Source: a virus. Taken from it: a stretch of DNA of 64,000 nucleotides. How positions within the stretch are numbered: the stretch's first letter is position 1; each line of letters opens with the position of its first letter. Below the pieces are notes generated by a model. The model saw nothing but the letters and a program-made list of their open reading frames with translations. It did not search any database and was not told the DNA's origin. Of the stretch, positions 5,352-30,138 are shown in pieces. A program made the translations under genes and the position numbers. The stretch is from positions 1 to 64,000 of IMG/VR virus record IMGVR_UViG_3300025117_000028. One strand, 5' to 3'.

Positions 5352-8300
5352 ATGATTGATAATTTCAGCAACCTTCCTTCGGTTGTAACCGAACAAGTTG
5401 ATGGGAATATACGCTTCTCTCCTACTCCTCGTGGGCCAATTGTTTTAGTCCTCGGGAGTGCTTCAAAAGGAACTTCTGCGGGATATTATGTATCTCGTGT
5501 TGGTGACGCTTTTAGTACTTTCGGTAAAACTGGAACTCTAACTCGCGGACTTGAAGAAGTCGCAGGATTTGGAGCTGAAAATGTATTCTTGAAGAGGATT
5601 GGCGCAAAATCGGCCACTCTTTATAATGTGGGCGGTATTGGAAACTATATCCAAACTGCTTTAAAAGATGATTCTGCTGGAGAAGACTACGAAATAGTTT
5701 ATCTTTGCCCAAGTCAAATTGCTGGTGGAGTAACTACAGGACGTTTACGCGTTCGTAATTCTAGCGGAACAGTTGTATATGACAATTATGCCGGTCTGGC
5801 CACTGTATTAGATAATGGCGAAGTTTATGTTTCTGGTACTTTTACTGAAGACTTAGACGAAGAAACTTACATCTCTACAGACGATGAAGACTGGATTTCA
5901 ATGGCTGATCTAGCTGGTGACATTATTAATGTTGCCGGTCAAGCTTTTGCAGAAGGAGATGGCGCCACCACAGAATTTCCTTTGCCTTGGTCTTTAATCG
6001 ATCCTTTCTCTGTCAAGATTTATGTTGATGAGAGCGATGGAACTGATTATGCCGAAGCAGCTTATAAGGATTTTGATTACGGTGGCAATAGTCTTCTAAG
6101 CGAATACGGTGTGCTACTTGAAAAAGATATCGCTCCGTCGGTTTCTTTCCCGGTCGCTGGTAAATATGGTTTGATGCTTCATCAAATCGAAGTATTAGGT
6201 GGGACTCTCAGTACTGGTATTACTTTAAAATTTACTGACCAAAATGGTGATGACATCGATGGTACAGGAAATAGTTATGATACTATTTCTGTAGATGCTG
6301 CTTCTACTCCTGCACAAGTTGCTGCTGCGATTAACGGTCATTCTGTTATTGAGCATAAGCTTTTCGCCAAAGTTAGCAGCAACTATGTAAATATCTTCGA
6401 TATTCAAAACCCGACTACACAAGACTCTGGTTTATTCTATATTGAATGTACCTCTGGTGCTGCTGCTATAGTCTTAAAATCTCAAAACCCGGAAGATGTA
6501 GCTGCTGGTGTTGCTAGTAACATTAGTTTCGTAAACTCAAGTCTCCAAATCACCAAAACTGATGGTTGGGGTACTGGAGTTGAAGAAGAAATGCTATTAG
6601 AGATTTGGGGAGATGAAGATGACAATGTAGGGTCAACCTATATCACTGCTGTTATTGGTGGTGGAACTATCATAGAAGTAACAGAACAAGATTTTATTTT
6701 TGGTTGTGTCGATGAATCTGCGGGCGCAAATGTCCGTTATCGTATCTCTAACCGCATGATGCCAATAGTAAAATTCGGAACTGCTCTTCCTGCTGCGACC
6801 GGATCAACAGCTATCACTCTTGATGGTTTTGGTTTTGTTAGTGCTCATGATGGAATAGATACAACTAATAGCGTTTTATTTGTTCCTGGTACTGCAAATT
6901 CTGATGAATTACTTGCAGGACTAGATGGAGCAAGTCTCGAAATGTGTCCTCATGCTAGTACTCTTCGTCATCAAGTTGGGTTAGATGGTGGTTTACTTGA
7001 GGCCTCAGGATATACTCTTGCGACTACAGAAGAACCTACCGTTACCAATGTACAAGACTTAATTCTTGCTTATTATCCTATTGACTATACTTGTGGTACT
7101 GGCTTAAACACCGGTAAGTATGGTACAGAAGGAAATGGTAATTCTGGTGCAATTACTCTGGCGATTGCTTCAGGAGCAGCTTTAACTATTACTAATGGCG
7201 GATGGAACGAAAATATTTCGATAGCCCTTCAAACTACTAGTAGTATTTGGACTGGTGTTCCTACCACTAGTTATGCTGATGGTGAAATCACTATGACACT
7301 AAATGCTCCTTCAACAGCTGATTTATCCGACCCGATAAATTGGCTTGCTGCTGGTGAAGAAGTATATTTATATGTTGATACTACAGACGTAGCCGAAGCA
7401 GGATGGTATGAGGTTATCGATCTCAATGACACTACCGATGTATTGACACTGGTAGGTACTGCTAACTTTACAGGTAACGGAGCAAATATTACTTCCTTAT
7501 TCTTTGCGGATAATGATGCTAACACTCCTGCTTTAATCAACACAGCTCTCATTGCTGCTGATAGTTCTTATCGTTTCTTGAATGATGCTGGTGGCGTTTC
7601 TACTTCTACTATCCCTATTACTGAAGCTGTGTCGTTTGCCACTTTAGCAAGCGGCGTTGACGCTACTTGGACTTTCACTGATGCGACTAGTGCTGGTAGT
7701 GCTGTATATGATAAGGGATATTGGGAAACTACTGTAGGTTGGTCAATAGTTTGGACTGGTGGATCTGTCAATGAATTCGCACTTTCTGGTTGTATAACTG
7801 GTGGAACTTTAATCAGTGCTGCGATGTTAAGTGTCGGAGACATAATACAATTCGTAGATCTAACAGATAGTCCTGCTTTTATAGTGGAATCGGCAGTTGC
7901 TTCGGGTTCCGACTTGAGAGTTATTGTTCGAGATTCTACCCAAGATATTTCTGCCTTATTACCTGCTATCTCTCAAGGCGCTATTGTTGGTAATGTTGTT
8001 CTTGGTGGTTCTGGCGATGGTATTGTTATTCGCAAGGATAACTCTTATGAAATTCCAGAGTCAGTATTAAGTTATGACGATGTAGATATCACAACTGACG
8101 TCGTATATTGGACTCAAGACGCTACAGATCCTAAGTCTACTGCCGTTTCCATTGACGGAGATGAAAGTAACTTAGATGTTGTTGATGAACTTGAGAATAG
8201 TATTACTATTGATGCGATCACTTATGCTTCTCTATCTGACGAACAAGCAGTAGAACAGATTGCGATCGTAGAAGCCGATGAAGCTTTTGCGACTTACTCT

Positions 8301-13025: not shown

Positions 13026-13621
13026 CAATCCCTATTGTTTCAGAAACTAAGGCTCGTTATCATACTCTTTATACATTTGAGTGTGAAGAGATGGGGCCAA
13101 TTGTTTTTGCTCCTATGTCCATAAAAGACGTAGAGCAATATCTTTATATATCTAAAGTTTCTTATCCTATTGCTGCAGAATTAGAAGCAGAATTTTTATG
13201 TAAATATATTATAGAGCCAATTTTTACTATAGATAAGATAAAGCCACTTCCTTATGGAGAAACTAAAACCGTCTTCAATATCATGCTCTATCTTTCACAT
13301 CCTAGTGGAGTAAATGATATAATCAATAATATACAAATATATAGGAGCGTTTTTAAAAATAATCTCTTAGACCAAATGTTCTCCTTTATATGTCAGGCTT
13401 TTCCTGCGTATACGCCTGATACTTTAAAAGAAAAAAAATGGCCAGAATTAATTACGTTAATTACTATGGCAGAATTTATTAACGGAGACTTTGAGATTGT
13501 AACATCAGAAACAGCTAAACAAAAAAAACGCAAACCCATATCTGAAGAAAGGATAGTCACAGAAGATCCACGAGAGGAGTACTTAAAACAACATGGCCAA
13601 CAGACCGAGACATCATGCTGA
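13022..13621 (+). CDS. Putative second tail assembly chaperone
   Basis: This 199-residue, mostly helical protein follows the previous gene with a four-base overlap. Its own 3' end overlaps the giant downstream gene by 29 bases. It has an N-terminal strand segment (GPIVFAPMSIKDVEQYL), a central helical domain, and a W-P-E-L-I-T-L helix near residue 140, followed by a basic KKKRKP stretch and acidic tail. In many phages the second chaperone is made by frameshifting; here a separate start coupled by ATGA gives the same two-protein set. The role is inferred from size and position next to the tape-measure-like gene. Confidence 0.5.
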   Translation: MTIPIVSETKARYHTLYTFECEEMGPIVFAPMSIKDVEQYLYISKVSYPIAAELEAEFLCKYIIEPIFTIDKIKPLPYGETKTVFNIMLYLSHPSGVNDIINNIQIYRSVFKNNLLDQMFSFICQAFPAYTPDTLKEKKWPELITLITMAEFINGDFEIVTSETAKQKKRKPISEERIVTEDPREEYLKQHGQQTETSC

Positions 13622-16600
13622 AAGTATCATATCTCTCGATATTGAAACGACTGGTCTAACAGACGAATCTAGAATTTATGATATTGGTATTACCGATTAT
13701 GAAGGTCAATATTTATATCAAGAACGATTTGAAGGATCTTTCATAGAAGACGTTCTAAAGCGTCCAGACGAATATAAAACATCCCCCGAAATTTCGACCT
13801 ATGCACTACGCCATATCCAGCAAATAAAAGACATGGACAGTGCTGAAGCTCTTGCTTATGCTCGATCTTTAGAAGCAAGTGAGAGATTAGATCCATCTAA
13901 ATTATATGACACCCTCCAAGAAACTATGAGAGGGAAACAGTTATGGGTTTATAACCTTAACTTTGAACGTCGTCATATCTATCATAAAAGCGGTTTTGAT
14001 CTTGGCCATCCTAAATTCCGCGATACTCGAATCGAAGAGTTAAGAAGTAAAATAAAAACTGTTCCTACTCTTAGCGAAAATTTTGGCAATTATAGAAAAT
14101 TACTTGGTAGATATAGGAACTTATTAGCCCAAGGGACTCCTGGCGCTTTCGACTTAATGGAAATGGCCAAAGCAACTATGGCTGTTGCTATTGAAGAAAC
14201 GCATAAAGGTAGAGGGTTTTTCAAACAAAGCGCACTTGCTCTTCGTGGAGAAGATGTTGTTACTGGGTTATCTGCTGAAAATTTTGCTCAAGCACTAGAT
14301 TTTCTCAATCTTGAAGGTAGAGTAGGTGAAAGTCATATTGCTTCCATGTCTAAGACTAGCGATACTATTCTTAACGTTAAAATTCTAGATGTATTAATAG
14401 ACATTTCCGATGTAGTCTTTAACCCAAAAAAGAGTATTGCAGATTTACCTCTTGCTGGGAAAACACTTTTAAATATTTTAGGCAATTCGTATTTAGAAAA
14501 TAAACAAGAATCGATGCGGAAACAGATGTCTTCTCGATGGGAAGAATTCATGAGAGGACATCGTACTAATGAACTATTACAATTCGACAACCCCGTTGAT
14601 GCCTTAAGGGCTTATGGCCAAAAATCTTTACGCAATACAGGAATAACTGGGCAAGATGCTTTAATTGATAGGCTAATATATCAGACTAGAGAAGAGGCGC
14701 GCAAAAATTTAGCAACATATCATAAAACTCCTTTTACTTCTCAATGGAATCGTCTTTCTAAGCTTACTGGTTTAGAAGATAATCGTTTCATATCGAAAGG
14801 TTTTTCTTTACTAGAAGGTAATAAAAGAGTCGTTGCTGGTGTGGGGCTAGCAGGTTTAGTAGGGATGCCTGTATTAGGACTTCTTACAAGACAAGAAAAT
14901 ACCGCAAATACAGCTTCTTCAATTTTATCTATTGTAGGAATGGGAGGCGTAGGCGCGTGGGCCTTATCTAAATTTGCTCCTAACTGGGCACCATTAAGAG
15001 GAAAAGCCGCAGGTACAGCAGGATTAGTTGGTGCTGGATTGATGGCCGCTGGTGCTATTACTGGTTTCAGTTTCAATGCATTAAGAGACAATACAAAAGC
15101 CGCAGAAATGCGTCATGCATATACCGCTTTCGGATCAGGTTATGTAGGAATGGACCAAGACACTAGAACTGCTACCATGTCTAGTGGAAACTGGCCTAGT
15201 TATCTAATGACTGGTATAGGTTGGTATGCTTCTCCCTATATGAGAAATTTGATGCAAAAATTAATGAGATTCCCAATTATGCCTTTTGACATGATGGGTT
15301 TATCTTATCTAGAAACAGAGAAGGGAGAATATGCTCGTCGAGCAGGAAAGTCGATGGCAACATTGGGTGACTGGGCGCACAACTTAGCTCGGCGCATTGA
15401 ATTATCTCCTTCAACTTTAGGTATTGGACGAATTCTTCAATTAGGAACTTTGGCTAGCGGTGTTTCTTTATATGACACTACACATGTTATAGAAATTTTA
15501 GGGAAGCAAAACGAAAAAGATCTAATCAAATATTATTCAAAATTAGTAGGTAAAACCGAAAAACAATTTCTAGATATATTACGACAAACCGAAAGCACTA
15601 AACTCTTATATAAAAGAGGAGCTATATATGCCGGTGGAAAAAATGGTCTTCGAATTGGAGAAGCCCTAACTACCAACGTTACACTTTTACAGAATCATTA
15701 TTTAAAACCATCGCGCGCACAAATCTTAAACCGGTTAGAAACTGGAGCAGATATAGAATATGGGTATAGATCTAGTTTAATCCATGCATATACCAAACCT
15801 AGAGGTATTAATCTTAGAGACGAAGAGTTTGTTGCCTATCCTAAATTTCTAAGAGAAACGCGTCCATTTAGTTTTGGGGCAAAAAAATTCGCTAATTTTG
15901 AAGAAGCCAAAGAAGACTTCTTGAAAACCATGAAGCCTCTCTGGAGAGATTTTCGTCGCACTATGTCTCACTATGTTGGTCCATACTTTAATATTGCCGC
16001 AAGACGTGCTGCACTATTAGCTCAGACTCCATTTGCTTCAGTTGCGGAAATGTTACCAGAACCCATGCAAGATAAAGTATTGGGTAAATATAAAGAGATC
16101 ATTAACAAAATCAGACAGAAGTGGATTCCAGGATTGCCCAAATGGGGCTCTCCTTTTATAGCAGAAGAAGGTGGAGCCTTCACTAAGTTTGGAGCAAAAC
16201 TAGGGGCAAAATTAGGCATTCCTGTTCATGCTTTTGCACATTCTACTCCCGGAATTTTCTGGAGAATGAGTAAGAGTGTCGCTAGTTTAAGTTTACTTCC
16301 CTTTGCTTATAAGGCCATAGACGATTTAATGTATAACTTAGTAGGAGTTGGACCTACTCAAATATTAGCAACTGCTTCTGGCGGAATTAAAACGGCCTTT
16401 TCTGCCGTTTCAGATATTACCGGATTAACAGAAATAGCCAAGACGCAAGAAGAAGCAGGAGCCCCAACTGGACCAGGTGGATTCTTAAAATGGATGCTTG
16501 GAACTACTGGTACTGGAATGGTTGCCGGAGCTGCTATTGGAGCTGCAAAGAATTTTAAGACCGAACTAGCCGCTGAAGGACTTGAACGTTTAAAAGCCGT

Positions 16601-19600
16601 GAGAGGCAGTACTAAAGTTATTCAAAATGCAGCAGTTAAAGGGATGAAAATAGGCGGGTTAGCAGGACTATTATTAGGACTTCCTTTAGGATTAGGGTTC
16701 TTAGGATCAGATAAAACAGTTGGTGAACAGATTGACGAACTACAAGGAGATACAGAAGTCCCTGTAATGAAGGGTCGTTTTTGGCCAATGGGTCGTTCTC
16801 CATGGGAAGGAACTGGGGTTGATTATTTTGCTCCATCATGGGAAGCCGAGAGTTTTGATAGATCAAGGATTGCCAGTCTATATGGAGATTCCTTAAAAAA
16901 TGACTTCTTATTAAGAGCTTTCAAAGAGTCACCTATTTTAGGAGACTTCTATCGGCCTTACTATCTTGAAGAACTTCACCACGAAGATCGTCCATATTTC
17001 GTTACAGGACCCTCTGGAGAAGGTGCAGGGTTATGGGGATCTTTATATGAAATGTCACTAGGGCAGATAATTAAACCTACTCGTGATATGCATAGAGAAG
17101 CCTTTATAGGCTTACGAGGTTATGCTGGTGGTCCTACCGAAGAGTATGGCTACCCAACTGTTGGTGGCCAAAATTATTATGTTCCTTCAGGTGAAATTGA
17201 AGGTGAAACAATGACTCTCCCAGAAACAGTTTCTCAGTATAATGTCATTCCTCAATTAGGAGAAGCTTTATACGGAGCCACTGAATTAATGGGTTTACGC
17301 GGTTATATGTTTGCTTCTGCTTTCAGTACGGAACAACTAGGAGTCTCTGAGCCCATGGTTCCTTCTGCTAAGCAAATGGTAGGTAGAAGACTGTATTGGG
17401 ATAGGTCGATAGGTGACCCTTTCGCAACTGAATTTTACAGACGAGTAAACCCTCGATATAGAGCAGATTTACAATGGGCAAATCCCCTTAGAAATCAAAT
17501 GCCTGAATGGTTGCCGGGATGTTTTTTACCGGAAACAAAGATAGAAACAGATAGAGGGTTAATTTCAATAGAAGAAGTTCGGCAAACAGATATGCTGTAT
17601 ACGCATGTTGGTAGATACCGTAAAATTTTACGTTTTTATCAGCATTTTATTAATGATGATATAACTAAAATTCAACTGTTTGGCAATAACCTTTTTCCTA
17701 TCGAATGTACAAAAGAACATCCATTTTTAGCTATAAAAATAGATGGTTGCAAATATTATCGAGATAGAAGAAAAACATGTCAGCCACATAGTATTAGAGG
17801 AAATAAGCCTTGTAGATATTGCGTTAATAAAAATAAAAAATTTGAAGTTAATTGGATTAAAGCTAATGAATTAGAAAAAGGAGATGTCTTATTATATAAA
17901 ATTCCTATTTTAGATGAGTCTGTGAAACATATTTTTATATCAGACTTTGTAAAGAATATTTCATTTACGGATGACTCAATTAGAAGTGGATTGAGAGGAT
18001 CTTATAAGGTAATTCATAATAAAATTACCTTAGATTATAACTTTGGTTTTGTATGTGGACAATTTTTAGCGGAAGGTCACGCTTCTAAATATACTTTATA
18101 TTTCGCCCATCATATAAAAGAAGGAAATTATTCTGATGCAATTCAAAATTGGTTTACAAGTATTAATTTGCCAGGAAGTCGAGTAGATAAAACAACTTAT
18201 ATAGTAGATCAATTTTACAGTAGGGTGTTAGCTAATTTTTTTGGGCAAGAATTTGGAAAAAAAGAAAATAAAAAAATTCCTTCCTGGGTTTTTAAAAGTC
18301 CTGATGATTTTAAAAAAGGATTTTTAACTGGTTATTTAAATGGAGATGGGAGTCTTGGTGAAAATAATATTTCTGCCTTTACAATTTCTTTGCAGGTTTT
18401 TTATGGAATTGTTAAGTTACTAGCTTCTTATAAAATTCCTTTATCTTATTCATATATACGATACCAAAACAATAAAGATGGTTATTGTTTTGGATTTATT
18501 GTAGACAAATATTTTATATCTAATTTCCCAATTTTAAAAAATAAAGTTCTATTTTATAAACAAGAAACACATACAGCGAGACAAAGTTTTATCTTTAATG
18601 ATGAGTATATAGCCTTTAAAATAAAAAAGATTGAAAATATTAACTATGTTGGAAATGTATATAATTTTGAAACAGAAGAAGATAATAGTTATACAGTTAA
18701 TTTTATTAATGTTCATAATAGTAATTATTTCGAAAACTTTTTAGAAGGAGACATATATTCAAGTATTCCTAGAGGTGAAGAGCGTCTTCCTGGTGCTGGT
18801 TATGAACGTAGATATCCTGAAGTGACAGGATTAGATCCTGAACTATATCCTATGGCACATAAGTTAAGTATTCTAGGAGACACTGCTCTATGGAGTTCTG
18901 AATTCCGTGATGCTCGTCGAGCTATGGAAGATCTTTATGAAGAAGGAAGTTTAACAGATCATGAAAAAGCCATGTATGAAGAAACTATGGCTCAGGTTAA
19001 CCAGCAACAACAAAAAATTAACTTTAGAAGTGAAGAAGGTGGAGGTTTATTAGGAACTTATTATCGTACTATTACAGATATTGCGCGCGCGAATCCTTTA
19101 GAGCAGATACTTCCTTTTTCGCCCGCCCATAAATTCTTTGGTCCAATGGATGTTATTAGCCATTACAAAGAAAATGTAGTTTATGGTAATGCTTTTGCAC
19201 CTTGGAATACTCCCATTAGTAGTTTTATTTCTCCGGCTATAAACAAAGCAATGGATATAGTAGGGCTAGACCATATCCCAGATGAAGTAGAACAAGAACG
19301 TGCAATCAGTGAATATTTTGACAAATTAGAATATGTAAAATTTCAAGGACTAGCAAGACAAGCTGAGAAAAGAGGCGATGATAAAGGCGCCTCTCAATAT
19401 GCAAGAGAAGCCAGAAATACATTGGTTGGGCTAACGAATGAAGCCCCCTTATGGCAAATCATGAGTGCGTTACCCGCAAGAGAGAAACCATATTTTGAAG
19501 CTTTCACTCAGATTGAAGACTTAAGTGACCGAGCAGATATATTAGATTTAGTTCCAGAATATGTAGGTAGATCTCTACAACAACAATGGTATGGAGATGT

Positions 19601-20006
19601 ATCCGAACGGACCGAAGAAGATAAAATGGAAGAGTTATCTGCATTTTTCCGTGATTATAGATTGCCGGGTCCAGAATGGAGTGGGTGGAGTGACCAGATA
19701 AATCTTGATGATATTAAGCTTAAATACGTAGAGAATCATGGACTTAACGCTCATAACTTTGGAATATGGCAAGCACAAATTCAGGCCGCAAAACATAAAC
19801 CTTATTTAGACGAATTGGCAGATAGTTTAGGCCATACTGCTTTATTGAGTAGTAGTCCCGATGTTAGACAAGTTATGGAAAATCTAGGACAATATAATTA
19901 TAATAGTTATGAGATGTCAGCGTTGGCATCTAATGTAACAAATTACACTATATATAAAGATAACACACAAAAAGTTAAAAGACTTTTAGACGATTTAGGA
20001 GAATAA
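13593..20006 (+). CDS. Giant tape-measure/ejected virion protein with DnaQ-like N-terminus and an intein
   Basis: The precursor is 2137 residues; removal of the intein (residues 1310-1709) would leave 1737. The N-terminus looks like a DEDD 3'-5' exonuclease. SLDIETTGL gives the Exo I pair D16/E18, VYNLNFERR is at the Exo II place (about 119-127), and SHIASM at 247-252 may be a degenerate Exo III. Hydrophobic Gly/Ala segments suitable for membrane insertion lie near residues 414-433, 443-462, 473-497, 970-985 and 1017-1038. The rest is long, helical and Arg/Glu-rich. The position, after the chaperones and before the hub, is that of the tape measure, and the membrane segments fit a protein released into the cell envelope. 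ATG 13593 overlaps the upstream gene by 29 bases; GAGGAG lies 13 bases upstream, rather far. Whether it sets tail length, is ejected, or both is not known. Confidence 0.65.
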   Translation: MANRPRHHAESIISLDIETTGLTDESRIYDIGITDYEGQYLYQERFEGSFIEDVLKRPDEYKTSPEISTYALRHIQQIKDMDSAEALAYARSLEASERLDPSKLYDTLQETMRGKQLWVYNLNFERRHIYHKSGFDLGHPKFRDTRIEELRSKIKTVPTLSENFGNYRKLLGRYRNLLAQGTPGAFDLMEMAKATMAVAIEETHKGRGFFKQSALALRGEDVVTGLSAENFAQALDFLNLEGRVGESHIASMSKTSDTILNVKILDVLIDISDVVFNPKKSIADLPLAGKTLLNILGNSYLENKQESMRKQMSSRWEEFMRGHRTNELLQFDNPVDALRAYGQKSLRNTGITGQDALIDRLIYQTREEARKNLATYHKTPFTSQWNRLSKLTGLEDNRFISKGFSLLEGNKRVVAGVGLAGLVGMPVLGLLTRQENTANTASSILSIVGMGGVGAWALSKFAPNWAPLRGKAAGTAGLVGAGLMAAGAITGFSFNALRDNTKAAEMRHAYTAFGSGYVGMDQDTRTATMSSGNWPSYLMTGIGWYASPYMRNLMQKLMRFPIMPFDMMGLSYLETEKGEYARRAGKSMATLGDWAHNLARRIELSPSTLGIGRILQLGTLASGVSLYDTTHVIEILGKQNEKDLIKYYSKLVGKTEKQFLDILRQTESTKLLYKRGAIYAGGKNGLRIGEALTTNVTLLQNHYLKPSRAQILNRLETGADIEYGYRSSLIHAYTKPRGINLRDEEFVAYPKFLRETRPFSFGAKKFANFEEAKEDFLKTMKPLWRDFRRTMSHYVGPYFNIAARRAALLAQTPFASVAEMLPEPMQDKVLGKYKEIINKIRQKWIPGLPKWGSPFIAEEGGAFTKFGAKLGAKLGIPVHAFAHSTPGIFWRMSKSVASLSLLPFAYKAIDDLMYNLVGVGPTQILATASGGIKTAFSAVSDITGLTEIAKTQEEAGAPTGPGGFLKWMLGTTGTGMVAGAAIGAAKNFKTELAAEGLERLKAVRGSTKVIQNAAVKGMKIGGLAGLLLGLPLGLGFLGSDKTVGEQIDELQGDTEVPVMKGRFWPMGRSPWEGTGVDYFAPSWEAESFDRSRIASLYGDSLKNDFLLRAFKESPILGDFYRPYYLEELHHEDRPYFVTGPSGEGAGLWGSLYEMSLGQIIKPTRDMHREAFIGLRGYAGGPTEEYGYPTVGGQNYYVPSGEIEGETMTLPETVSQYNVIPQLGEALYGATELMGLRGYMFASAFSTEQLGVSEPMVPSAKQMVGRRLYWDRSIGDPFATEFYRRVNPRYRADLQWANPLRNQMPEWLPGCFLPETKIETDRGLISIEEVRQTDMLYTHVGRYRKILRFYQHFINDDITKIQLFGNNLFPIECTKEHPFLAIKIDGCKYYRDRRKTCQPHSIRGNKPCRYCVNKNKKFEVNWIKANELEKGDVLLYKIPILDESVKHIFISDFVKNISFTDDSIRSGLRGSYKVIHNKITLDYNFGFVCGQFLAEGHASKYTLYFAHHIKEGNYSDAIQNWFTSINLPGSRVDKTTYIVDQFYSRVLANFFGQEFGKKENKKIPSWVFKSPDDFKKGFLTGYLNGDGSLGENNISAFTISLQVFYGIVKLLASYKIPLSYSYIRYQNNKDGYCFGFIVDKYFISNFPILKNKVLFYKQETHTARQSFIFNDEYIAFKIKKIENINYVGNVYNFETEEDNSYTVNFINVHNSNYFENFLEGDIYSSIPRGEERLPGAGYERRYPEVTGLDPELYPMAHKLSILGDTALWSSEFRDARRAMEDLYEEGSLTDHEKAMYEETMAQVNQQQQKINFRSEEGGGLLGTYYRTITDIARANPLEQILPFSPAHKFFGPMDVISHYKENVVYGNAFAPWNTPISSFISPAINKAMDIVGLDHIPDEVEQERAISEYFDKLEYVKFQGLARQAEKRGDDKGASQYAREARNTLVGLTNEAPLWQIMSALPAREKPYFEAFTQIEDLSDRADILDLVPEYVGRSLQQQWYGDVSERTEEDKMEELSAFFRDYRLPGPEWSGWSDQINLDDIKLKYVENHGLNAHNFGIWQAQIQAAKHKPYLDELADSLGHTALLSSSPDVRQVMENLGQYNYNSYEMSALASNVTNYTIYKDNTQKVKRLLDDLGE
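17520..18719 (+). other. Intein with LAGLIDADG-type homing endonuclease domain
   Basis: A 400-residue in-frame insertion inside the giant protein. It begins with Cys (CFLPETKIETDRG, block A) after Gly. It has a block B signature CTKEHPFLA with the T-x2-H pattern, a WIKANELEKGDVLLY splicing-domain strand, and ends VYNFETEEDNSYTV...FINVHN followed by Ser as the +1 residue. All catalytic positions (Cys1, block B His, penultimate His, terminal Asn, Ser+1) are present, so splicing should work. Between the splicing halves are two dodecapeptide-like motifs, FVCGQFLAEG and LTGYLNGDGSL, typical of a LAGLIDADG endonuclease; the acidic residue is E in the first and D in the second. Four extra cysteines (17740-17825 region) may bind zinc. 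The DNA is visibly richer in A/T than its flanks, suggesting separate origin. Confidence 0.93.
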
Positions 20007-20009
20007 TTT

Positions 20010-23000
20010 ATGCCGCGTTTAGGAGAAGACTCCTTAATTCCAAGTTGGGCATTTTGGGGAGGAATGGGTGCTGTTGGATTGACGTATGGCGTTAGGGCAT
20101 GGAATCAACTTGCTAATGCTCCAGGAGCAGATCTCGCTTTCCGTGGTTTGTCTTGGAGTGCCAGAAATATAGAACATAATCAACGCGCAGCAACTAATGT
20201 AGAACAGTTGTTTAAGCGTTCTAAGTATGTTAATGAAGGAATAACAAAACGCAGTTTATTGTCCGAATCAAAACCGTTAGGAATTGTAGAATTCGATGAA
20301 GTTTTAAAAGGTTTTGAAACCCGAGGATTAGTTACAGCAGAAGCAAGAACTAAATTTTTAGAAGGTATCCGTCCTGCCTTTGAGAGAGCGGTAGTTGTTA
20401 CACATGCCGAGACACAATTACCTGTCGCCTTGGATATTACATATAGAGCAGGTCAAAAAACCACTAGTTTTATGTTACCTATTTTACAGAGTCAGAAAGC
20501 TTTAACTGGCGATGTAACTCTTTCTCCTGATATCTTATCTGTATTGGCAGTAAGAAAAAGGGAAATGGGTTATATTCCCGGAGCCATGTATACAGCCATG
20601 CATGTTGCTGATCCTAGGCGAGCCTTAACTGGGTTATCAAGGAATGAAACTGTGGCGACTGATTTAAGGCGCGTTAATGTTATGCAATATTTATTTGAGT
20701 CCTTTTCGCAAGAAGGAGTGATGAAAAATATTTTATCAGGAGAGATAGATCCATCTAAATATTTAGAAGGATTTGAAGAACGAACCTTTTATGCTCCACT
20801 TACAGATTATAGAGCAGGAGCTTCAGAGGTGGCACATTCTGGAGAAGCCTTCAAGAGAAGTAGACAGACAATTATCATGAATCAGTTCTTGCAAACACCC
20901 GGAACAAGAGAATTAAAAAGTTATGCAACAGAAACATCTCCGGGTATTTTTGAGTTAACTGAGGGAGGTAGCCGACAGTTAACCATTGCACTTCCAGAAC
21001 TGTTACCTGGTAGTTCTTCTTCTCCTACTGCTGGAACCGTAATGTTACCCGAGCAACAAGCTGAAGTTAGAAAATTGTTTTATGGTTCTGCTTATAATGT
21101 AGACATGAGACAAGTCATGAGACCCAATACTGTTACTCTCGATCCTTCGTCTAAATATTATTCTTCGTTAAGCAAGGGAAGAAAATTATTTCCTGGTATT
21201 GCTACTCAAATAGGAAAAGAGGCAGTACCAATTAGTGTCAGATCTCTTTTTATAGATTCAGAGAAAATGACGGCGCATTTAGAAAGTTTAGGGTTTCCCA
21301 AGGGTTTCACCTTGGCCAAAGAAGAAATGTTCATGCCCTATGAGATGGGGAGAGCTATTCGGATTAATGGTCCTCGTAAAACCTATAGAGTTAAACAAGC
21401 ATTGTTAAATCAAGATCTACAAAATGTTTTATTAGAGTTAGAGAAATCTACGATTGACGGCAGACCTGGAGTAAATTGGGAAAATCCAGAAGGAGTACAA
21501 GCCCAGTTAAAAAAATGGGCAGAATCAGCCACTAAAGAAAAAAGATTAGTAACCTTTGGTGCTGGCGTAGAATTAGGAGTATCTCCGAATATTGTTGAAA
21601 AAGGAAATCCTGAAATAGTTAGGTTAAATAGAAGTGGTAAGAAACATATTTTAGAAAATATTAGATTATTTAAAGGAGCTAGAGGCGAAGGATATGTAGA
21701 AGCAACTTTTAAATCTCAATGGAAATTGTCCGAAGCAATAACTAAAATGTTTTTAAGCGAAAAGAAACGTGTCCGTCCAATGAGAGACATTGATGTCGCC
21801 TTAATTATGCTAGCAGAAAAACATCAGGGTTACACAGCTGGCTTATATAAAGAGAAGTTATTAGAAGATTTACCCGGATTAGAAGCTACAGGAATAGTGA
21901 AAAATTTTAGAGAATTAGTAGAGCTAGAATTTCGAACTACTTTCGGAAGAGGTCAATTGAGGGCACTGACAACGACTCACCCATTTGAAAAGTTTTTTAA
22001 AGGGGTACCGAAGACTGCAACTTTACATGATGTTTTAACTCAAAAAGGAGGAGCACTAAAATCTGCTAATATACAGTCCATGATGCTGGCTTTGTTAGAC
22101 CTAAATATATCCTCTAAAAAGAAAGGTGAGATTAAACGAATTATACAGGATCCTAATTTAGACGATCTTCAAAAGATGAATAAAGTTAGTCCAATGGTTA
22201 CTGTTGGAGATATTATAAACCCCGAATTTACTCATTCTTTTATTCCTGATCAACCGGATATTTATTATGCCGGAGGGAAAGTTCGATATACAAAAGACTT
22301 ATATGCAATGATACAATCTGGTCCAGAAAGAGAAGCACTACAACCATTCTTAGAAGATATAAGAAGTAGAGCAGTTGGAGCAGAAGTATCTGCAGAAGCC
22401 GCTTCTATATTAGAACGTACTCGTTCTATGGCTTCAACAGTATTACATAAAACAATTACAGGAGAAGTTTTGCCGTTAGAAGAATTAGCGCGTTTCGGAA
22501 ATAATTTAAATTGGGATAAATTGCAGGCAGTCTCTCAGCGGCATGGTGGTGCTTCTTGGTTAGACCTAGGAAATTTTGTGAATATAGAAGAAATGGGTGG
22601 GTCAATACGATATGTAGAATTGCCTACTTCTCCTGCCTTTGCTAATGAGATGAGAACAATGTTACAGAATGACGAAGAAATTGCGCAAAGTCTTTTAAAC
22701 TCTGTAAAGCGTTTAATTAACTCAGCTGGAGGAAAAGATATTAAATCAGCTCTTCAGGGTTATTTGGAAGAACAAAAGTCTTTGGCTATTTCTGCAAAAG
22801 GTGAAATTCAAGGATCTGTATATTTAACAGCTAGTTCTACTATACAAGAAAAAAATCCTTTTACGGTTGCAATTCCAGAGAAATATATTAAACGCATGCA
22901 TAAAGAAATAGGAACCACCTTAGATGAAGTTACTGGAGAATTTTTAGGAATGGCCGCTCGTGATCCTAATATTTCTTATTCTCGTAACGTCCCCGTAAGA

Positions 23001-24317
23001 ATTGTTTCGACTGAATCATTCTTGAGAAAGTCGATTGGAAATAAGTTCTATAATCTGATTCCAATTGGAGAAGAAGTATATATGTCTCCAATGTTGAAAG
23101 CATTGCTCGGAGCAGATAGTGACGGTGATATTATCAAAATAATGTTAGCTGGAAGTGAACTTAGTAAAACTTCTTTAGATAATGTCATAACCGGAGCAGA
23201 AGCAGCCTATGAGCAATTTTCTAAAAACTTAAGTGCAAATGTTGTAGAAGGAATTGGTACTAAATTTGGTTATGCTGCGGCATTTTTCGAGAAGGCATAT
23301 GGCCTATTAAAATCAGGAACTAATGTAAATCCATATCTATTCGAAACATTAGATGATTTAATTCAATCCGACGCAACTAGAAAGTTATTGGAAAAGGTTG
23401 GTATTGGTAAAGCCCATGGAGCTATGAACGCGGTAAGAACTTCATTACGTTTATCTTCTGAAACATCTTATAAGGCTGTTCATGCTCTTGCGACAACAGT
23501 GTTATTAGAAGAACAAATTATTAAAGCAAAATATGCAAAAGGTAGTCTTGCGGAAATTAAAAGATTAGCGACAGGCGGTTATTTGGCCGAAATGATGGAC
23601 GAAGCTATAGAAGCGGGTGATCCTCAACAGTTTGTTAATACTGCGTATGGTATCTTAGGTATAGACCCTGAAACTTTTGCAGATAAAAAAGTTTTAAGTA
23701 ACATTACAGAAGGTGCAGAAGAGATGATAAGAACTTACTCTAAATTTAGAGGAACCGACGAACTTCAGGCTGCTATTTTATTGAATCAAACCCATGGAGA
23801 TAGAGTTAAGGTTGAAGATTTCTTAAATGTTTTGCAAAAGCAAAAAAAAGTAGCCTCCCAATATTATGGTACAATACAAGAAGCAACAATGAATTATAAG
23901 GCTCTAGGTCAAGACATACCTGAACGTTTTGGTACTATGATCAATAAATTTGGAAAGTTATCTACTGGGGCTAAAGTTGGGTTAGCCGGAGGTGCATTTG
24001 CGGCTCTTGCTGGTGCTTCTTCTTTGATTGGTCAAATGAAAGCTTCGACTGCTGTTGCTGAAATTGATATAGATAAAAGTCGTAAATTTGAAGACGCATA
24101 TAAGATTTCTCGACTTCAAAAAAATGCTTATGCTTCTAGAGTTCAAGGAGAAGGTGGAAAATTCAGTTCTCTTAGTGCAGTCATAGATGAAGCATTCCCA
24201 GTAAAAGATAGAATCGCAAACATCAATAGAAGTTACGGTAATAATGTAAACGTAAGTGTATTCGATTATTCGCGCAATGTAGATATAGATATGTTACAAC
24301 ATCAAATGGAACAATAA
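20010..24317 (+). CDS. Large virion-module protein with RNA polymerase-like double-psi barrel motif
   Basis: This 1435-residue protein starts three bases after the giant upstream gene. Around residues 930-1045 it has an order of motifs resembling the catalytic barrel of RNA polymerase beta' and single-chain relatives such as YonO and QDE-1. These are a KG-E-x-Q-G-S-V opening strand, a hydrophobic T-V-A-I-P strand, a SRNVPVR segment where beta' has R-x-P-T-L-H, and GADSDGD at 1035-1040. The last places three Asp (D1036, D1038, D1040) at exactly the spacing of the metal-binding ADFDGD loop, with S in place of F. Upstream, residues about 550-600 are basic and strand-rich and might be the second barrel; this is less clear. 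An N-terminal hydrophobic stretch (about 10-30) and a C-terminal Gly/Ala segment could touch membrane. Gene position suggests a virion-packaged protein. Activity is unproven, and a tape-measure partner with a chance motif remains possible. Confidence 0.55.
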   Translation: MPRLGEDSLIPSWAFWGGMGAVGLTYGVRAWNQLANAPGADLAFRGLSWSARNIEHNQRAATNVEQLFKRSKYVNEGITKRSLLSESKPLGIVEFDEVLKGFETRGLVTAEARTKFLEGIRPAFERAVVVTHAETQLPVALDITYRAGQKTTSFMLPILQSQKALTGDVTLSPDILSVLAVRKREMGYIPGAMYTAMHVADPRRALTGLSRNETVATDLRRVNVMQYLFESFSQEGVMKNILSGEIDPSKYLEGFEERTFYAPLTDYRAGASEVAHSGEAFKRSRQTIIMNQFLQTPGTRELKSYATETSPGIFELTEGGSRQLTIALPELLPGSSSSPTAGTVMLPEQQAEVRKLFYGSAYNVDMRQVMRPNTVTLDPSSKYYSSLSKGRKLFPGIATQIGKEAVPISVRSLFIDSEKMTAHLESLGFPKGFTLAKEEMFMPYEMGRAIRINGPRKTYRVKQALLNQDLQNVLLELEKSTIDGRPGVNWENPEGVQAQLKKWAESATKEKRLVTFGAGVELGVSPNIVEKGNPEIVRLNRSGKKHILENIRLFKGARGEGYVEATFKSQWKLSEAITKMFLSEKKRVRPMRDIDVALIMLAEKHQGYTAGLYKEKLLEDLPGLEATGIVKNFRELVELEFRTTFGRGQLRALTTTHPFEKFFKGVPKTATLHDVLTQKGGALKSANIQSMMLALLDLNISSKKKGEIKRIIQDPNLDDLQKMNKVSPMVTVGDIINPEFTHSFIPDQPDIYYAGGKVRYTKDLYAMIQSGPEREALQPFLEDIRSRAVGAEVSAEAASILERTRSMASTVLHKTITGEVLPLEELARFGNNLNWDKLQAVSQRHGGASWLDLGNFVNIEEMGGSIRYVELPTSPAFANEMRTMLQNDEEIAQSLLNSVKRLINSAGGKDIKSALQGYLEEQKSLAISAKGEIQGSVYLTASSTIQEKNPFTVAIPEKYIKRMHKEIGTTLDEVTGEFLGMAARDPNISYSRNVPVRIVSTESFLRKSIGNKFYNLIPIGEEVYMSPMLKALLGADSDGDIIKIMLAGSELSKTSLDNVITGAEAAYEQFSKNLSANVVEGIGTKFGYAAAFFEKAYGLLKSGTNVNPYLFETLDDLIQSDATRKLLEKVGIGKAHGAMNAVRTSLRLSSETSYKAVHALATTVLLEEQIIKAKYAKGSLAEIKRLATGGYLAEMMDEAIEAGDPQQFVNTAYGILGIDPETFADKKVLSNITEGAEEMIRTYSKFRGTDELQAAILLNQTHGDRVKVEDFLNVLQKQKKVASQYYGTIQEATMNYKALGQDIPERFGTMINKFGKLSTGAKVGLAGGAFAALAGASSLIGQMKASTAVAEIDIDKSRKFEDAYKISRLQKNAYASRVQGEGGKFSSLSAVIDEAFPVKDRIANINRSYGNNVNVSVFDYSRNVDIDMLQHQMEQ

Positions 24318-24318
24318 G

Positions 24319-27300
24319 ATGGCAGTTATCAATTCTCCAGGAATAATTCAAATCAATGATATTCACGTTACAATTCCTCCTACTCAGATAGAAGTGAATG
24401 TAATGTATCGAAATGAAAAAGTTGATGTCCTGCGTTCTCAAAGTGAATTATATTTAAGATCAGGGTATGGGACTGTCTTTTTTAGATTCTCGTTAGTTTT
24501 CCAAGATACAAAAGCCGTCAATGAAGAATTGATTCCGTTGGTTATACAATCTAATAAAACTCCCTTCTTCTATATTTCCAATGAAGCTTTGCGGACAGAA
24601 CTAGTTCCTTACTTAATTCCCAATATGACAGAAACAACCGATAGTGTACTTTATCAATTGTCTATTGTTGGTCGATTGTTAAATTTAAAATACTCTTCTC
24701 ATCCTCAGGCTCCTGGAGTTATTGTCGCTGATTTTAGTTTTTCATTATTTAATTACCGTCCTTTTATGAAACAGTGGCTTTATAAAACTCATTGGCCTAC
24801 CCCAGATGAAGTAGTCAATGCAGTTCGAACTATTGAAAATAGTTTTGAGCGTCCCACGAAACTAGTTCCTTCTACTTCTGTACAGATAGGTCTTGGAGTT
24901 AATGGTTCTAATCCTGCTGGCTTAACAGCATTTACAAGATCACCTGGTTCTGACTTAATGGCAAATATTGAACCTTATCAAAGAGATAAGGTTCAACTCA
25001 TTTTCAGAGACAATATAAAAGATACCAGAAAAAAACTTAAAGAAATTATTGATGATCCAAAAATATATGGAAATCAAACTACCAATCCTGTTCTCTCTGA
25101 TTGGTGGAAACATTATTACATGCATAAAACTTATCTTCAGGACGAACATACTAATGAACCGTTAAATCATATTGATCAAATCGAAAACAAATTAACTATC
25201 CATTATAAAGAATTTGCAAACCTCAAAGAAGTAGGTTTTACTCCGCGTTTTGAAGAAAATTCCAATACTGAAGTCTCACGTCCCGACCTGGATATAACTA
25301 AAATAGATTGGCGTTTACCACAATTCCAAGATCTATTAATTACGGCAATGGAAAATGCTTGTAAGTTTAAAGTAGAAGACCCAAGGCCATCAACACTAAC
25401 TGTTGATCAATCTGGTCACAACATAAAACCAACAGGACGACCTCTTATCCGAGAATTGAGTAAAAAGTGGAATACAAATGGAAAACAATGGATAAACCTT
25501 GTTAAAAAAATCTTTGGGTCAGACCCAAGATTAATTCCTACATTTCTTTTTATGATCATGCATGAATCTAGTAGGCCGACTGATAAAGGTGATCGATTTC
25601 TCGTGAATAAAAAAGAAGCAAAGTCATTAGGTTCTGAGTATAACCAAGCTTTTGGATTATTACAAGTAACTGAGATACATAAAAAAGAATTAGCTAAAGC
25701 AAAAATCATAAGTAGTGTTGAAAATTTTTATAGAGAAATATTAGAGCCTGAAACTAATCTTAAAGCAGCTTTATTGGTATATAAGCAGGCTAAGAATACT
25801 TTAAATCCTTGGCAACCTAAAGAGTCTGTTGCGATTTATATGAGACATTTCGATAATGAAGTTAAAGAACTTCTTTCTAGTACTAAACTGGTACAGAAAG
25901 AAACTGTTCAAAAAAAGACTGTCCAGGACTTTAGTAATGAACTATTTGGTGATACAAATGATATAAACATGACCAGTGATGGAATCAAGATCTCTGGAAA
26001 TGAGTTGTCCAATAATATAAATAATATCGAAATCCTTTATGAAGACTTTTACTCCACTAGAGACAAGGCCCTAAAACGAATCAATGAAGATTATGCAGAT
26101 AGTTATGATCAAGGATGGAGATCTGTCTATGAAATGATGACTAATCAAGAATATTTAAGAGAAAGAGGAAATACTTCCTTAAGAAATATTTTTTATAAAG
26201 ATCATAGTTGGGAAATGCCTCCTTCTCTTGTTCTTGAAAGTGTTGGAGTTTCTATTGACAACAATAATTTAACTATTCCTATTGCTGGAGCTTTACTGGC
26301 TACATCTCAACATTTAACAACTCCTTCTGCTAGATTTGACTTAGGAATACATGCTGTTCCAGAATTTGAGGAAGGAGAATTAATTCTCAACCAAGCACAG
26401 ATAGAGTTGAATAACATTTTGAAATTAGTTCAAGAACAGAATATTTCTTATAAATATGTGAACAAGAAAAATTCTTTAGCTATATCTAACTCTATCCTAC
26501 AAGTTGCAAATGTCAGTCAACAAGGGGAAGAAGAAGGATATAATTGGGATCATGTAGGCAGAGTTCCAGTTGTAATAGACAGTATTAATATTATTAGTGA
26601 TCAAAGAAGTCCAAATACTTTTATTTTAAATATTGTGGGCGCTTTTAATAGAACACAATTTGAAGAAGTAGAAAAAATAGAAAACTTTAACCTTTCTGTT
26701 GAAGAATTGGTATCTGAAATATGTCCTCTTCTCATACAGGATGTAACAAATATTGTTAAGAGTAGATATAAGAATGAGACAACTCCTTTTGATATTTTTT
26801 GGGATGTTGCCTTTTGGAAAGCAATGAGCAATAAATTTAAACTTCCTGAGAAATCTAAATATTCACAATTTCTTCCAGATATATCTGGAGATTATACAAC
26901 AACCGAAGAAGAAGCAATACAGTTAATGGGTTCTATCTTTCTTTATTTTTTCAGTTTGGGACCTTTTAAAATTCTTGAAGATTTAACAAGTGACACTCTT
27001 GTTGAACTTGACTTATATCTTGGAGTAGGAGGTCTTATTGCAACTATTGGGACTGGAGGAATAGCAGCAATTATAGGATTATTATTATCTATTGCTTCAA
27101 TGGCTACAAGCGTTCATGAATATCTTCAAAATTTTCAGACTAAAGAAGACCTAAAATCATATATGCAATTTTTAGATAAAGGGTTTATTAAATACCCCAT
27201 TAGAGATCATAAAGATTTTTTAGTAAATTTAGGTTTATCAAGCAACTTAATAGACTCAAGATCTGAAGATCCAATTATGGTTGAAGACGCCCTGACACAC

Positions 27301-30138
27301 CATAAATATGACATTATTCGTTATGCGATTAGAAACTATTCTCGTATTACACCTAAAGCTCGTGTAATGCTCGAAGCCTTTAGTTCACGCAAGCAGTTAG
27401 GAACTAAAAGTTGTTATCCTGATATGACATTGCCTCCAAATCCTTTCTTAGAAGAATTATATAGAGATTCGGAATTTGGAGATTTTTTTACAGAAGTAAT
27501 GCCTCCTTATTTTTATTTAGTAGGATCTGGAAATCAGAAGAGTGTTATCGAAAAGAAAATTGAAGAGTATCTATCTGATGCCGCAGAAGTTATTAATGAT
27601 AGTGAAGAGACACAAACCAAATTAAAACGTATTCAAGGAAATACAAGTTTATCTCTTGATCCTGAAATGCATGCAAGTAGATTATACGAACAAGATAAAG
27701 AGAAGAAATTAACAACTAAAGATGTAACTTTACAATTATATTCTTTTGAAAACGCTAAAGAATGGATAAAAACTTTAAAAGAAGATCTAACGAATGAATG
27801 TTATATAAAATCTTCTCCACAACGTATGGCTCCGACTTATAAGGTTTATTTCAAAGAGAGAACGTCCGACAAATTTTATTTTAATTTCTTTGATGAATTT
27901 TTTGGTGTTAATGCCATTCGTCGTATTTCTATTACTTCTACAAGAAAGTTCCCCGCTAGTTATGCAGTCATAGAGATATTAAATACTCAAGGCCATTTAA
28001 ATAATAAAGTATTTTGGGGAGCAGATGGAGCTAGAAGTGATGGAGGACATGTAGTCGAGTCTTCATTGATTCGAAACATGAAGAACTATAATACTTCTAT
28101 TACTAATACCTTATTAAAAGATGGAACAGATATTCAAATTAGACTTGGTTATGCTTCTGATCCTGAAGATTTAGAAACAGTATTTAATGGCCAAATTTTT
28201 TCTATTGAAGGAGAAGACGTTCTAACTATCAAGTGTTATTCATATGGTTATGAATTAGCAAGCAAAGAATACAATCCTTATGATGGCCATGAAGATGATG
28301 AAGACTATGATGAAACTTCTGAATTATTAGAATGGTGTTTGACTAGACCAGAAGTAATGCACTTTGGACGTAAAGAACTATTAGATTTCGTGGTCCCAAA
28401 AGGCTTTGGCCTCAATCTGAGACAACGTCTTCTTGGAGGTTTGCAGACAGACCGCGAAGGGAAGATAAGTCAAACAACTTTTAGATTTATTAGTTATCCT
28501 CAAAATGATAATGTATTCGTTGAAGAAATTAGAACAAAATATAGTAGATGGAGTCCGACAACATGGTTTGCAATGGCAGTTCGAGATGGTTCAAGTCTAG
28601 ACTTAGAGTCCTCAGTTCTTTCTATCAAATTCGAAGCTTTTAAAGAATGGTTTAAAGAGTTAGTTGTTCCTTGGAGTGAAGAAATATTTTTAGGACCATA
28701 TATTCCATTCAAACAAACTCTGTGGGATATCATTCAAGAAATGACGCTAAGACATTGCGGAACTATTGCTTCAGTAGTCCCCTACGACGACTACGTCACA
28801 TTGTTTTTTGGAAAACCTAGTTTATTCTATTTTTATAGATCTAGGGATTTATATGATTATATAAGTAACATAGAACATAACAACTTAAAAGAGAGAATAA
28901 CTGGTTCACTTGAAAAAACCAAGAAACAGTTTAGGAGATATCATTATGTGGATAGTATGTCTCATATTGTCAATAATAATATTCGGGCCGATTATTCTGG
29001 CACTTTTACAGAGATAACTGTTTTAACTGCTACTAAAAGAGATGATACAGCGTCGTTTAATGCGGATTATAATGACGAGACAGATGATACTAAAGATGTT
29101 ATTAATGATCCAGGAGATTTTGACCAAATTGCTCCCATGAGATTAAATAGAAATATAGTAGACAACTATATACGTGGGGCTACGATGGGTTTCCCTAATG
29201 TCAGGAATCAGACTATTGGAGAAAGATATGCCTCTTCTTTATTAGCTTTAAGTGCTCATGAGTTATATAAAGGGACTTTAACTCTAATTGGAAATGAAAC
29301 AATAAAGCCCTGGGATTATATGTATTTATACGACTCCTATAATGATATGTACGGAGCCATTCAGGTACGAGATGTTACTCACGTTATTTCCCCGGAAACT
29401 GGATTCGTAACCGAAATTGTTCCAGACATGATTGCTGTAACAAATGACTATGTAACAACTGCTTTGAAAGATGCAATGCTAAATGTTCTTAACCAAATAT
29501 GGTTAGATTCATATATGGAAGAAGCAAAAAGTTGGCAAACTTTGTCATGGGTACATGCCGAACCGGTTGTGAAATCAATAGAGTATGCCACAACTGCTAC
29601 GTTGGCTGTAAAAGCAGGATCATGGATAAGGACAGGAGCTACAAAAGCAGGAAAATGGGCAGAAGGCAAACTCTTGTCGCAGTCAAGAACTAATCTTCTT
29701 TACGGACCTGCTAGACAGGCAGTTGGTCAACACTTGAATGAAGTATCTGAAATGATAGGAAAGGTTGCAGCAAAAGCTCCAAGACTAACAAAGATAGCAG
29801 GTACTCTTGGACGTATCCCAATTAAACATCCGGTTGCAATGATTACAGCTGGTGTTGTAATGGTAGTCTTTGCAGGGGCACTAATAGATTTAGGCAATGA
29901 AGAAAAGACAGCATTTCCTGTCGTTGTTTCACCTTTGATTAAAAATGGAAAACCCTATGTAATAGGTGTTAATGGGTATGATATGAATACATTCCATCAA
30001 CACCTTTCTAAGAAGGTCCAAAAGTTTATAAAAAAATATAATCTGACTGAAGATTTAGCCGACGAATTAATGAGTATCTCTGTGATAGGTATAAGCAATG
30101 ATACATTAACTCAAGTACTTGAAACCCTAGGAAATTAA
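24319..30138 (+). CDS. Giant baseplate hub protein with embedded SLT lytic transglycosylase
   Basis: This 1939-residue protein starts right after the previous stop. The N-terminal 150 residues are a beta-rich tail-protein domain, and a related copy seems to lie near residues 640-790. Residues about 395-500 form a soluble lytic transglycosylase: the catalytic glutamate E416 in MIMHESSR, then the AFGLLQV motif and a PETNLKAALLVYKQA helix. A hydrophobic Gly/Ile-rich segment at about 899-930 could span a membrane. Residues about 1170-1700 match the GpD/gp27-like hub: RRISITSTRKFPASYAVIEI, then FNGQIFSIEGEDVLTIKCYS, and later a TKRDDT region. The C-terminus adds another hydrophobic stretch near 1855-1875. 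It would sit at the tube end, hold the spike and degrade peptidoglycan during injection. The combination explains its size, about five times a simple hub. Confidence 0.8.
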   Translation: MAVINSPGIIQINDIHVTIPPTQIEVNVMYRNEKVDVLRSQSELYLRSGYGTVFFRFSLVFQDTKAVNEELIPLVIQSNKTPFFYISNEALRTELVPYLIPNMTETTDSVLYQLSIVGRLLNLKYSSHPQAPGVIVADFSFSLFNYRPFMKQWLYKTHWPTPDEVVNAVRTIENSFERPTKLVPSTSVQIGLGVNGSNPAGLTAFTRSPGSDLMANIEPYQRDKVQLIFRDNIKDTRKKLKEIIDDPKIYGNQTTNPVLSDWWKHYYMHKTYLQDEHTNEPLNHIDQIENKLTIHYKEFANLKEVGFTPRFEENSNTEVSRPDLDITKIDWRLPQFQDLLITAMENACKFKVEDPRPSTLTVDQSGHNIKPTGRPLIRELSKKWNTNGKQWINLVKKIFGSDPRLIPTFLFMIMHESSRPTDKGDRFLVNKKEAKSLGSEYNQAFGLLQVTEIHKKELAKAKIISSVENFYREILEPETNLKAALLVYKQAKNTLNPWQPKESVAIYMRHFDNEVKELLSSTKLVQKETVQKKTVQDFSNELFGDTNDINMTSDGIKISGNELSNNINNIEILYEDFYSTRDKALKRINEDYADSYDQGWRSVYEMMTNQEYLRERGNTSLRNIFYKDHSWEMPPSLVLESVGVSIDNNNLTIPIAGALLATSQHLTTPSARFDLGIHAVPEFEEGELILNQAQIELNNILKLVQEQNISYKYVNKKNSLAISNSILQVANVSQQGEEEGYNWDHVGRVPVVIDSINIISDQRSPNTFILNIVGAFNRTQFEEVEKIENFNLSVEELVSEICPLLIQDVTNIVKSRYKNETTPFDIFWDVAFWKAMSNKFKLPEKSKYSQFLPDISGDYTTTEEEAIQLMGSIFLYFFSLGPFKILEDLTSDTLVELDLYLGVGGLIATIGTGGIAAIIGLLLSIASMATSVHEYLQNFQTKEDLKSYMQFLDKGFIKYPIRDHKDFLVNLGLSSNLIDSRSEDPIMVEDALTHHKYDIIRYAIRNYSRITPKARVMLEAFSSRKQLGTKSCYPDMTLPPNPFLEELYRDSEFGDFFTEVMPPYFYLVGSGNQKSVIEKKIEEYLSDAAEVINDSEETQTKLKRIQGNTSLSLDPEMHASRLYEQDKEKKLTTKDVTLQLYSFENAKEWIKTLKEDLTNECYIKSSPQRMAPTYKVYFKERTSDKFYFNFFDEFFGVNAIRRISITSTRKFPASYAVIEILNTQGHLNNKVFWGADGARSDGGHVVESSLIRNMKNYNTSITNTLLKDGTDIQIRLGYASDPEDLETVFNGQIFSIEGEDVLTIKCYSYGYELASKEYNPYDGHEDDEDYDETSELLEWCLTRPEVMHFGRKELLDFVVPKGFGLNLRQRLLGGLQTDREGKISQTTFRFISYPQNDNVFVEEIRTKYSRWSPTTWFAMAVRDGSSLDLESSVLSIKFEAFKEWFKELVVPWSEEIFLGPYIPFKQTLWDIIQEMTLRHCGTIASVVPYDDYVTLFFGKPSLFYFYRSRDLYDYISNIEHNNLKERITGSLEKTKKQFRRYHYVDSMSHIVNNNIRADYSGTFTEITVLTATKRDDTASFNADYNDETDDTKDVINDPGDFDQIAPMRLNRNIVDNYIRGATMGFPNVRNQTIGERYASSLLALSAHELYKGTLTLIGNETIKPWDYMYLYDSYNDMYGAIQVRDVTHVISPETGFVTEIVPDMIAVTNDYVTTALKDAMLNVLNQIWLDSYMEEAKSWQTLSWVHAEPVVKSIEYATTATLAVKAGSWIRTGATKAGKWAEGKLLSQSRTNLLYGPARQAVGQHLNEVSEMIGKVAAKAPRLTKIAGTLGRIPIKHPVAMITAGVVMVVFAGALIDLGNEEKTAFPVVVSPLIKNGKPYVIGVNGYDMNTFHQHLSKKVQKFIKKYNLTEDLADELMSISVIGISNDTLTQVLETLGN

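Follow-up and report, generated by a model that had tools for sequence, protein, structure and literature searches.

A candidate single-chain virion RNA polymerase in the tail module of a contractile-tailed phage

The tail module of the IMG/VR virus record IMGVR_UViG_3300025117_000028 (190,284 bp), of which bases 1-64000 were analysed (the window, with about 21,000 encoded residues), contains upstream of the baseplate hub gene a protein of 1435 amino acids (aa) that is probably a highly diverged, single-chain, two-barrel RNA polymerase (RNAP), which would be carried in the tail and ejected with the DNA for pre-early transcription. The evidence consists of an R-x-P motif followed by D-x-D-x-D, which a diverse lineage of contractile-tailed phages shares at one gene position, and of the similarity of the corresponding gene family to RNAP beta' or largest subunits. 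The segments of the protein that bear on this assignment are:

20010-24317, forward strand: 1435-aa candidate single-chain virion RNAP in the tail module, upstream of the hub (open reading frame, ORF; synteny)
22518-23150, forward strand: residues 837-1047, aligning with the beta'-type barrel of a Bacillota family of putative tail RNAPs (hhalign)
22797-22820, forward strand: KGEIQGSV (930-937), aligned with the TSSKG-S-I segment that precedes the barrel in the family (alignment A8)
22866-22901, forward strand: VAIPEKYIKRMH (953-964), read from the sequence
22956-22976, forward strand: ARDPNIS (983-989), proposed as the R-x-P motif that reads R-Y-P-T/S in the family (alignments A3 and A8)
23109-23129, forward strand: GADSDGD (1034-1040), candidate metal-binding triad D1036/D1038/D1040 (invariant Asp columns in A8)
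23979-24032, forward strand: GLAGGAFAALAGASSLIG (1324-1341), glycine-rich hydrophobic segment about 95 aa before the C-terminus, read from the sequence

Candidate catalytic motifs of the 1435-aa protein

A position check confirmed the GADSDGD motif of the original prediction at residues 1034-1040, 401 residues from the C-terminus, and the KG-E-x-Q-G-S-V strand that had been proposed at residue 930 was found there as KGEIQGSV. Between this strand and the triad lies VAIPEKYIKRMH, which we take to be similar to the GLPKxMALEL segment of beta'. The R-x-P motif had been assigned to SRNVPVR, a sequence that does lie at residues 991-997, with R992 44 residues before D1036; nevertheless, the alignments place the R-Y-P of the family on residues 983-989, so SRNVPVR was rejected in this role and the true R-x-P is probably ARDPNIS, whose R and P are invariant across five divergent sequences (alignments A3 and A8). 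In addition, the protein carries hydrophobic segments near both ends, and segments comparable to GLAGGAFAALAGASSLIG were detected near the C-termini of gp034 of Bacillus phage KLEB27-3 and gp036 of Acinetobacter phage ME3.

An alternative is an ordinary tape measure or tail-lumen protein, whose DxDGD would match by chance or form a metal-binding loop with no role in polymerization. Among 200,000 shuffles of the 1435-aa protein, DxDGD appeared in 0.66% and [AG]DxDGD in 0.11%; scaled to the residues encoded by the window, about 0.1 DxDGD per window would be expected by chance, so this motif alone is no proof. The alternative is also favoured by single-sequence searches with the 1435-aa protein (Pfam, PHROGs, PDB, tblastn of phages and IMG/VR patterns), which gave no match, to an RNAP or otherwise, and by phage 0305phi8-36, where orf146, apparently in the same slot judging from the published description, was assigned as the tape measure mainly on its length (PMC2147016). 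This orf146 is a long gene upstream of a gp27-like hub, and its last 60 residues alone could be aligned to a prophage counterpart (PMC2147016). Against a chance motif, R-x-P placed 25-70 residues upstream of [AG]DxDGD occurred in 0.0075% of the shuffles, and DxDxD with R-x-P recurs at the same position in all the syntenic homologues with an intact gene, where the triad scores as the most conserved stretch of a family whose profile matches RNAPs only. The motif is therefore credible beyond chance, since distant relatives conserve R-x-P and the Asp triad in their syntenic gene, and we regard an ordinary tail protein as unlikely.

Syntenic family and its relation to RNA polymerases

The window phage is a member of the 0305phi8-36/ME3/KLEB27-3 lineage, being related to ME3, KLEB27-3 and Moorella phage MTATph1 through its sheath, tube and hub and through the gene that precedes the candidate; the record of ME3 itself mentions homology to 0305phi8-36 for these genes. 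In the window phage, ME3, KLEB27-3 and an IMG/VR jumbo phage, the candidate gene sits between the tail gene that follows the chaperonins and the hub, and an identical position was found in phage-sized plasmids of Bacillus, Cytobacillus and Paenibacillus, where it is the second gene after the tail chaperonins. ME3 and KLEB27-3 have a single long gene directly before the hub, whereas the corresponding slot of MTATph1 is fragmented. In KLEB27-3 this slot is occupied by gp034 (2434 aa), labelled as a structural protein, which reads RYPT...ADYDGD. The plasmids that carry the tail module (loci L068-L074) are annotated as non-mobilizable, measure 200-240 kb and probably represent phage genomes or phage-plasmids.

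Motifs were compared in nine homologues, mostly from phages of Bacillus, Cytobacillus and Paenibacillus: those of plasmid records came from Cytobacillus, Bacillus halotolerans, B. licheniformis, B. paralicheniformis and Paenibacillus, and the others from two IMG/VR phages, Paenibacillus TCA20 and one additional Bacilli genome. All nine showed R-Y-P-[TS] 38-41 residues before [AG]DxDGD, and the ADSDGD form of the window protein was also present in the homologues of B. halotolerans and Paenibacillus TCA20. In ME3 gp036, R-E-P lies 43 residues before D-x-D-x-D, and in the window protein R-D-P precedes the triad by 52 residues, compared to 38-43 in its relatives; two-barrel RNAPs have their R-x-P(-T) segment 35-50 residues ahead of the triad. 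The protein measures 2264-2446 aa in relatives, versus one continuous ORF of 1435 aa in the window, and in the full-length alignment of the family the region of the DGD triad scored as the most conserved, followed by exonuclease motifs and a C-terminal stretch. Among 48 IMG/VR loci recovered from the hub alignment, the form of the gene shared by ME3 and the window phage was seen in ME3 and one further phage only, most of the loci encoding fused hubs of 3,300-4,000 aa without DxDGD. Large uncultivated phages of a distinct group (L014-L060) carry the hub domain in giant proteins of 3,300-4,000 aa, with a recurrent motif of the DLDDDIYDEVSF type.

That this family is RNAP-like can be said with high confidence from sequence comparisons. 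A profile built from eight family barrels was searched against 177,635 PDB sequences with expect values (E) up to 10, and all the 47 matches were RNAP beta' or largest subunits, aligned through the triad region, with a best E of 0.0014 and phiKZ055 (E 0.0087) as the closest phage match. In addition, PF00623 (RNA_pol_Rpb1_2) matched KLEB27-3 gp034 (E 7e-5) and an IMG/VR homologue (E 4e-4), values that are genome-scale and below the cut-off of Pfam, and phrog_2987 (RNA polymerase) matched a third family member (E 8e-4).

The window protein itself likely belongs to the family, as judged from its slot, the order of its motifs and a weak extended similarity taken together. When the barrel region of the family was compared by hhalign with 217 proteins of the window phage and its relatives, the window protein ranked first (E 6.5e-4) over 199 columns, covering residues 837-1047 and collinear up to the Asp triad; the second match had an E of 0.011 and ME3 gp036 came third (E 0.042). 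The corresponding score was reached by no shuffle of the window protein (250 made) or of ME3 gp036 (150 made). The five-way alignment A8 (window protein, ME3 and three family members) contained 14 invariant columns, among them the R, the P and all three Asp.

Several observations weigh against the polymerase assignment. Scrambling the triad lowered the hhalign score of the window protein from 39.8 to 21.0 (E 0.18), which is at chance level, so the motif itself supplies much of the signal, although the best alignment still spans residues 837-1035. The link between the window protein and the family was not significant with HMMER (E 0.16, and absent from a further HMMER search), and a full-length hidden Markov model of the family matched neither the window nor the ME3 protein. 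Furthermore, the searches yielded no close homologue of the protein, so that conservation was judged against remote relatives only, and a motif-directed scan of IMG/VR matched 133 stretches, none of them related to it. AlphaFold models had a mean predicted local distance difference test (pLDDT) of 32 for the window protein (shallow alignment of five sequences) and of 56 for the family domain (three sequences, also shallow); Foldseek searches with these low-pLDDT models returned nothing significant, and no second, beta-type barrel with two basic residues, bridge helix and trigger loop could be placed in models of this quality. In ME3 the motif reads DHDQD, with Gln replacing Gly, and MTATph1 is without the RNAP core, so some relatives can do without this gene. 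Finally, presence in the virion is argued from gene position and from the structural label of KLEB27-3 gp034. Of the earlier proposal of a virion-associated RNAP in a contractile-tailed phage, the part that finds support is a tail-module protein, next to the hub, with a probable catalytic barrel of beta' type, from a family that matches the largest subunits of RNAPs.

The variant motif of ME3 and the lost core of MTATph1 would also fit a virion protein that derives from a polymerase but has lost its catalytic activity, such as a DNA-binding ejection factor, with activity being dispensable in some lineages. The full Asp triad and the DGD sequence are nevertheless kept in the window protein and in the nine homologues, and we consider a dead enzyme very improbable. 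In MTATph1 (L003:8589-15945), an IS21-like istA/istB pair lies between the exonuclease ORF and a C-terminal remnant, in what looks like a natural loss.

Tail module and candidate second polymerase

Besides the candidate, the window encodes a contractile-tail module with sheath, tube-like proteins, hub/lysin and baseplate wedge. The features considered here, together with a second DxDGD protein outside the window, are:

5352-9614, forward strand: tail sheath (phrog_16991 tail sheath, E 3e-48)
13593-20006, forward strand: 2137-aa protein upstream of the candidate, homologue of ME3 gp035 (E 1e-33)
24319-30138, forward strand: 1939-aa baseplate hub/lysin homologue (PHROG lysis and phage matches; alignment A1)
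128085-131108 of the record (L009:8085-11108), reverse strand: 1007-aa second DxDGD protein (DQSDCDGD), candidate non-virion RNAP

The contractile nature of the tail follows from the sheath gene. The sheath protein is unusually long (1420 aa), and known sheaths matched its C-terminal part (950-1418) only.

The 2137-aa protein gave matches to RNase_H_2, intein, Hint and LAGLIDADG. They correspond to an N-terminal DEDD-type exonuclease (13593-14050, with DIETTG at residue 16) and to an intein of about 400 aa (Hint plus LAGLIDADG, 17520-18719). In the Bacillota proteins the exonuclease domain is located at the N-terminus of the RNAP-like protein itself, but in the window phage it is on the neighbouring gene, which suggests a relocation of the domain.

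The original prediction placed the candidate between a tape-measure-type gene and the hub. The gene does adjoin the hub, but its slot is itself apparently that of the protein called tape measure in 0305phi8-36 (PMC2147016). As a sub-case of a tail-carried polymerase, the 1435-aa protein could then be bifunctional, a tape measure that also carries the virion RNAP in the manner of gp96 of Thermus phage P23-45, rather than a separate cargo. The slot, the hydrophobic segments near both ends and the P23-45 precedent (PMC10770324) favour this possibility, whereas the upstream ORF (13593-20006), directly after the chaperonin position, could be the tape measure instead; we hold a double function to be rather doubtful. 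Extended to the lineage as a whole, it is a tentative idea, to which we give slightly more credit, that in an ancient group of contractile-tailed jumbo phages the so-called tape measure is itself the virion RNAP, commonly fused to or beside a DEDD exonuclease; in that case transcription would be integrated into DNA delivery by contractile tails.

The 1007-aa protein has a split homologue in ME3, gp152 (E 2e-23) and gp154 (E 3e-14), with DVDGD conserved. These are separated by the endonuclease gene gp153, perhaps as the result of an intron or insertion. In 0305phi8-36, orf99 has been described as a YonO-like RNAP (PMC7824862), and the 1007-aa protein may be its counterpart. The 1007-aa protein, its ME3 homologue and orf99 together suggest, by analogy with P23-45, a pair of virion and non-virion RNAPs in part of the lineage. 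No convincing second DxDGD polymerase was found in KLEB27-3, which carries two sigma factors. PF05183 had no match at E up to 10 in five phage records, including those of the window phage, ME3, KLEB27-3 and MTATph1, and the YonO/RNA-dependent RNA polymerase (RdRP) family that it represents was thus not detected in them. When intergenic regions were screened for repeated k-mers that might mark phage promoters, short A/T-rich words only were recovered.

At 100-153 kb of the record (L007-L010), two groups of small paralogues are present in several copies each, one of about 117 aa (MFKxINGxTIDF...WGPTQ) and another of about 126 aa (MTCKILEKLQELCQECE). Further downstream (160976-170929; L011), an ORF of 3,317 aa lies under many long antisense ORFs, possibly reflecting an unusual composition or a chimeric part.

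Proposed role and comparison with known systems

If the 1435-aa protein is a polymerase, residues from about 840 to 1050 would form a beta'-type barrel in which D1036, D1038 and D1040 bind Mg2+, and a second barrel would be located upstream in the same chain. The protein would be stored in the tail beside the hub, enter the cell with the DNA and transcribe the pre-early genes, and the hydrophobic segment GLAGGAFAALAGASSLIG might hold it at or in the envelope; afterwards, the 1007-aa candidate or the host RNAP would take over. Contractile-tailed phages of the 0305phi8-36 lineage would then possess single-chain virion RNAPs, and such phages could begin transcription without the host enzyme. In all the relatives examined the gene is annotated as structural, tape measure or hypothetical, and its re-annotation would join phages of Acinetobacter, of several Bacillota genera and uncultivated ones through a single gene family. 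Two questions would also become testable, namely how a contractile tail lets a very large polymerase through and whether tail-borne RNAPs have a single origin or several. Literature searches found no report of a virion RNAP in the tail module of the 0305phi8-36 lineage, nor of any contractile-tailed phage in which a tail protein is a single-chain RNAP.

Among known phage enzymes, the jumbo phage RNAPs of the phiKZ/AR9 type gave the closest phage profile match (phiKZ055), as well as that to phrog_2987. The virion RNAPs of phiKZ type are multisubunit, and phiKZ/AR9-type enzymes are split over several genes, in contrast to the single long tail-module chain that contains the putative catalytic part here. 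YonO-like and RdRP-family RNAPs are also single-chain, two-barrel enzymes, and orf99 belongs to the same lineage as the window phage (PMC2147016, PMC7824862), but its gene lies outside the tail module, on the right arm. A large single-chain, two-barrel phage RNAP is likewise described for gp66 of the crAss-like phage phi14:2 (PMC10770324), which belongs to another phage lineage and was not retrieved by the family profile from the PDB.

The nearest parallel in organization is P23-45, in which gp96 is a virion RNAP fused to the tape measure and gp64 a non-virion RNAP (PMC10770324). Since the tail-encoded virion RNAP of that phage was established in 2024 (PMC10770324), the setting, which had been suggested to be new for the window protein, is not wholly so. 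Both cases share a single-chain beta'-type active site in a tail protein (DFDGD in P23-45, a candidate site here), hydrophobic segments in the RNAP chain and, again as a candidate here, a second DxDxD polymerase elsewhere in the genome. In contrast, the tail of P23-45 is non-contractile and its virion RNAP makes up the N-terminus of a 5,002-aa fusion protein, an arrangement that the window protein does not show, whereas the window phage has a contractile tail and a separate gene (1435-2446 aa in the family) with the catalytic motif in the C-terminal part of the product, and an exonuclease is fused to it in relatives or encoded on the adjoining gene. The family profile did not retrieve P23-45 gp96 from the PDB. 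If the tentative idea for the whole lineage holds, its contractile-tailed phages would resemble P23-45 in delivering a polymerase through the tail, but with an enzyme of a separate branch, nearer to the cellular and phiKZ beta' subunits.

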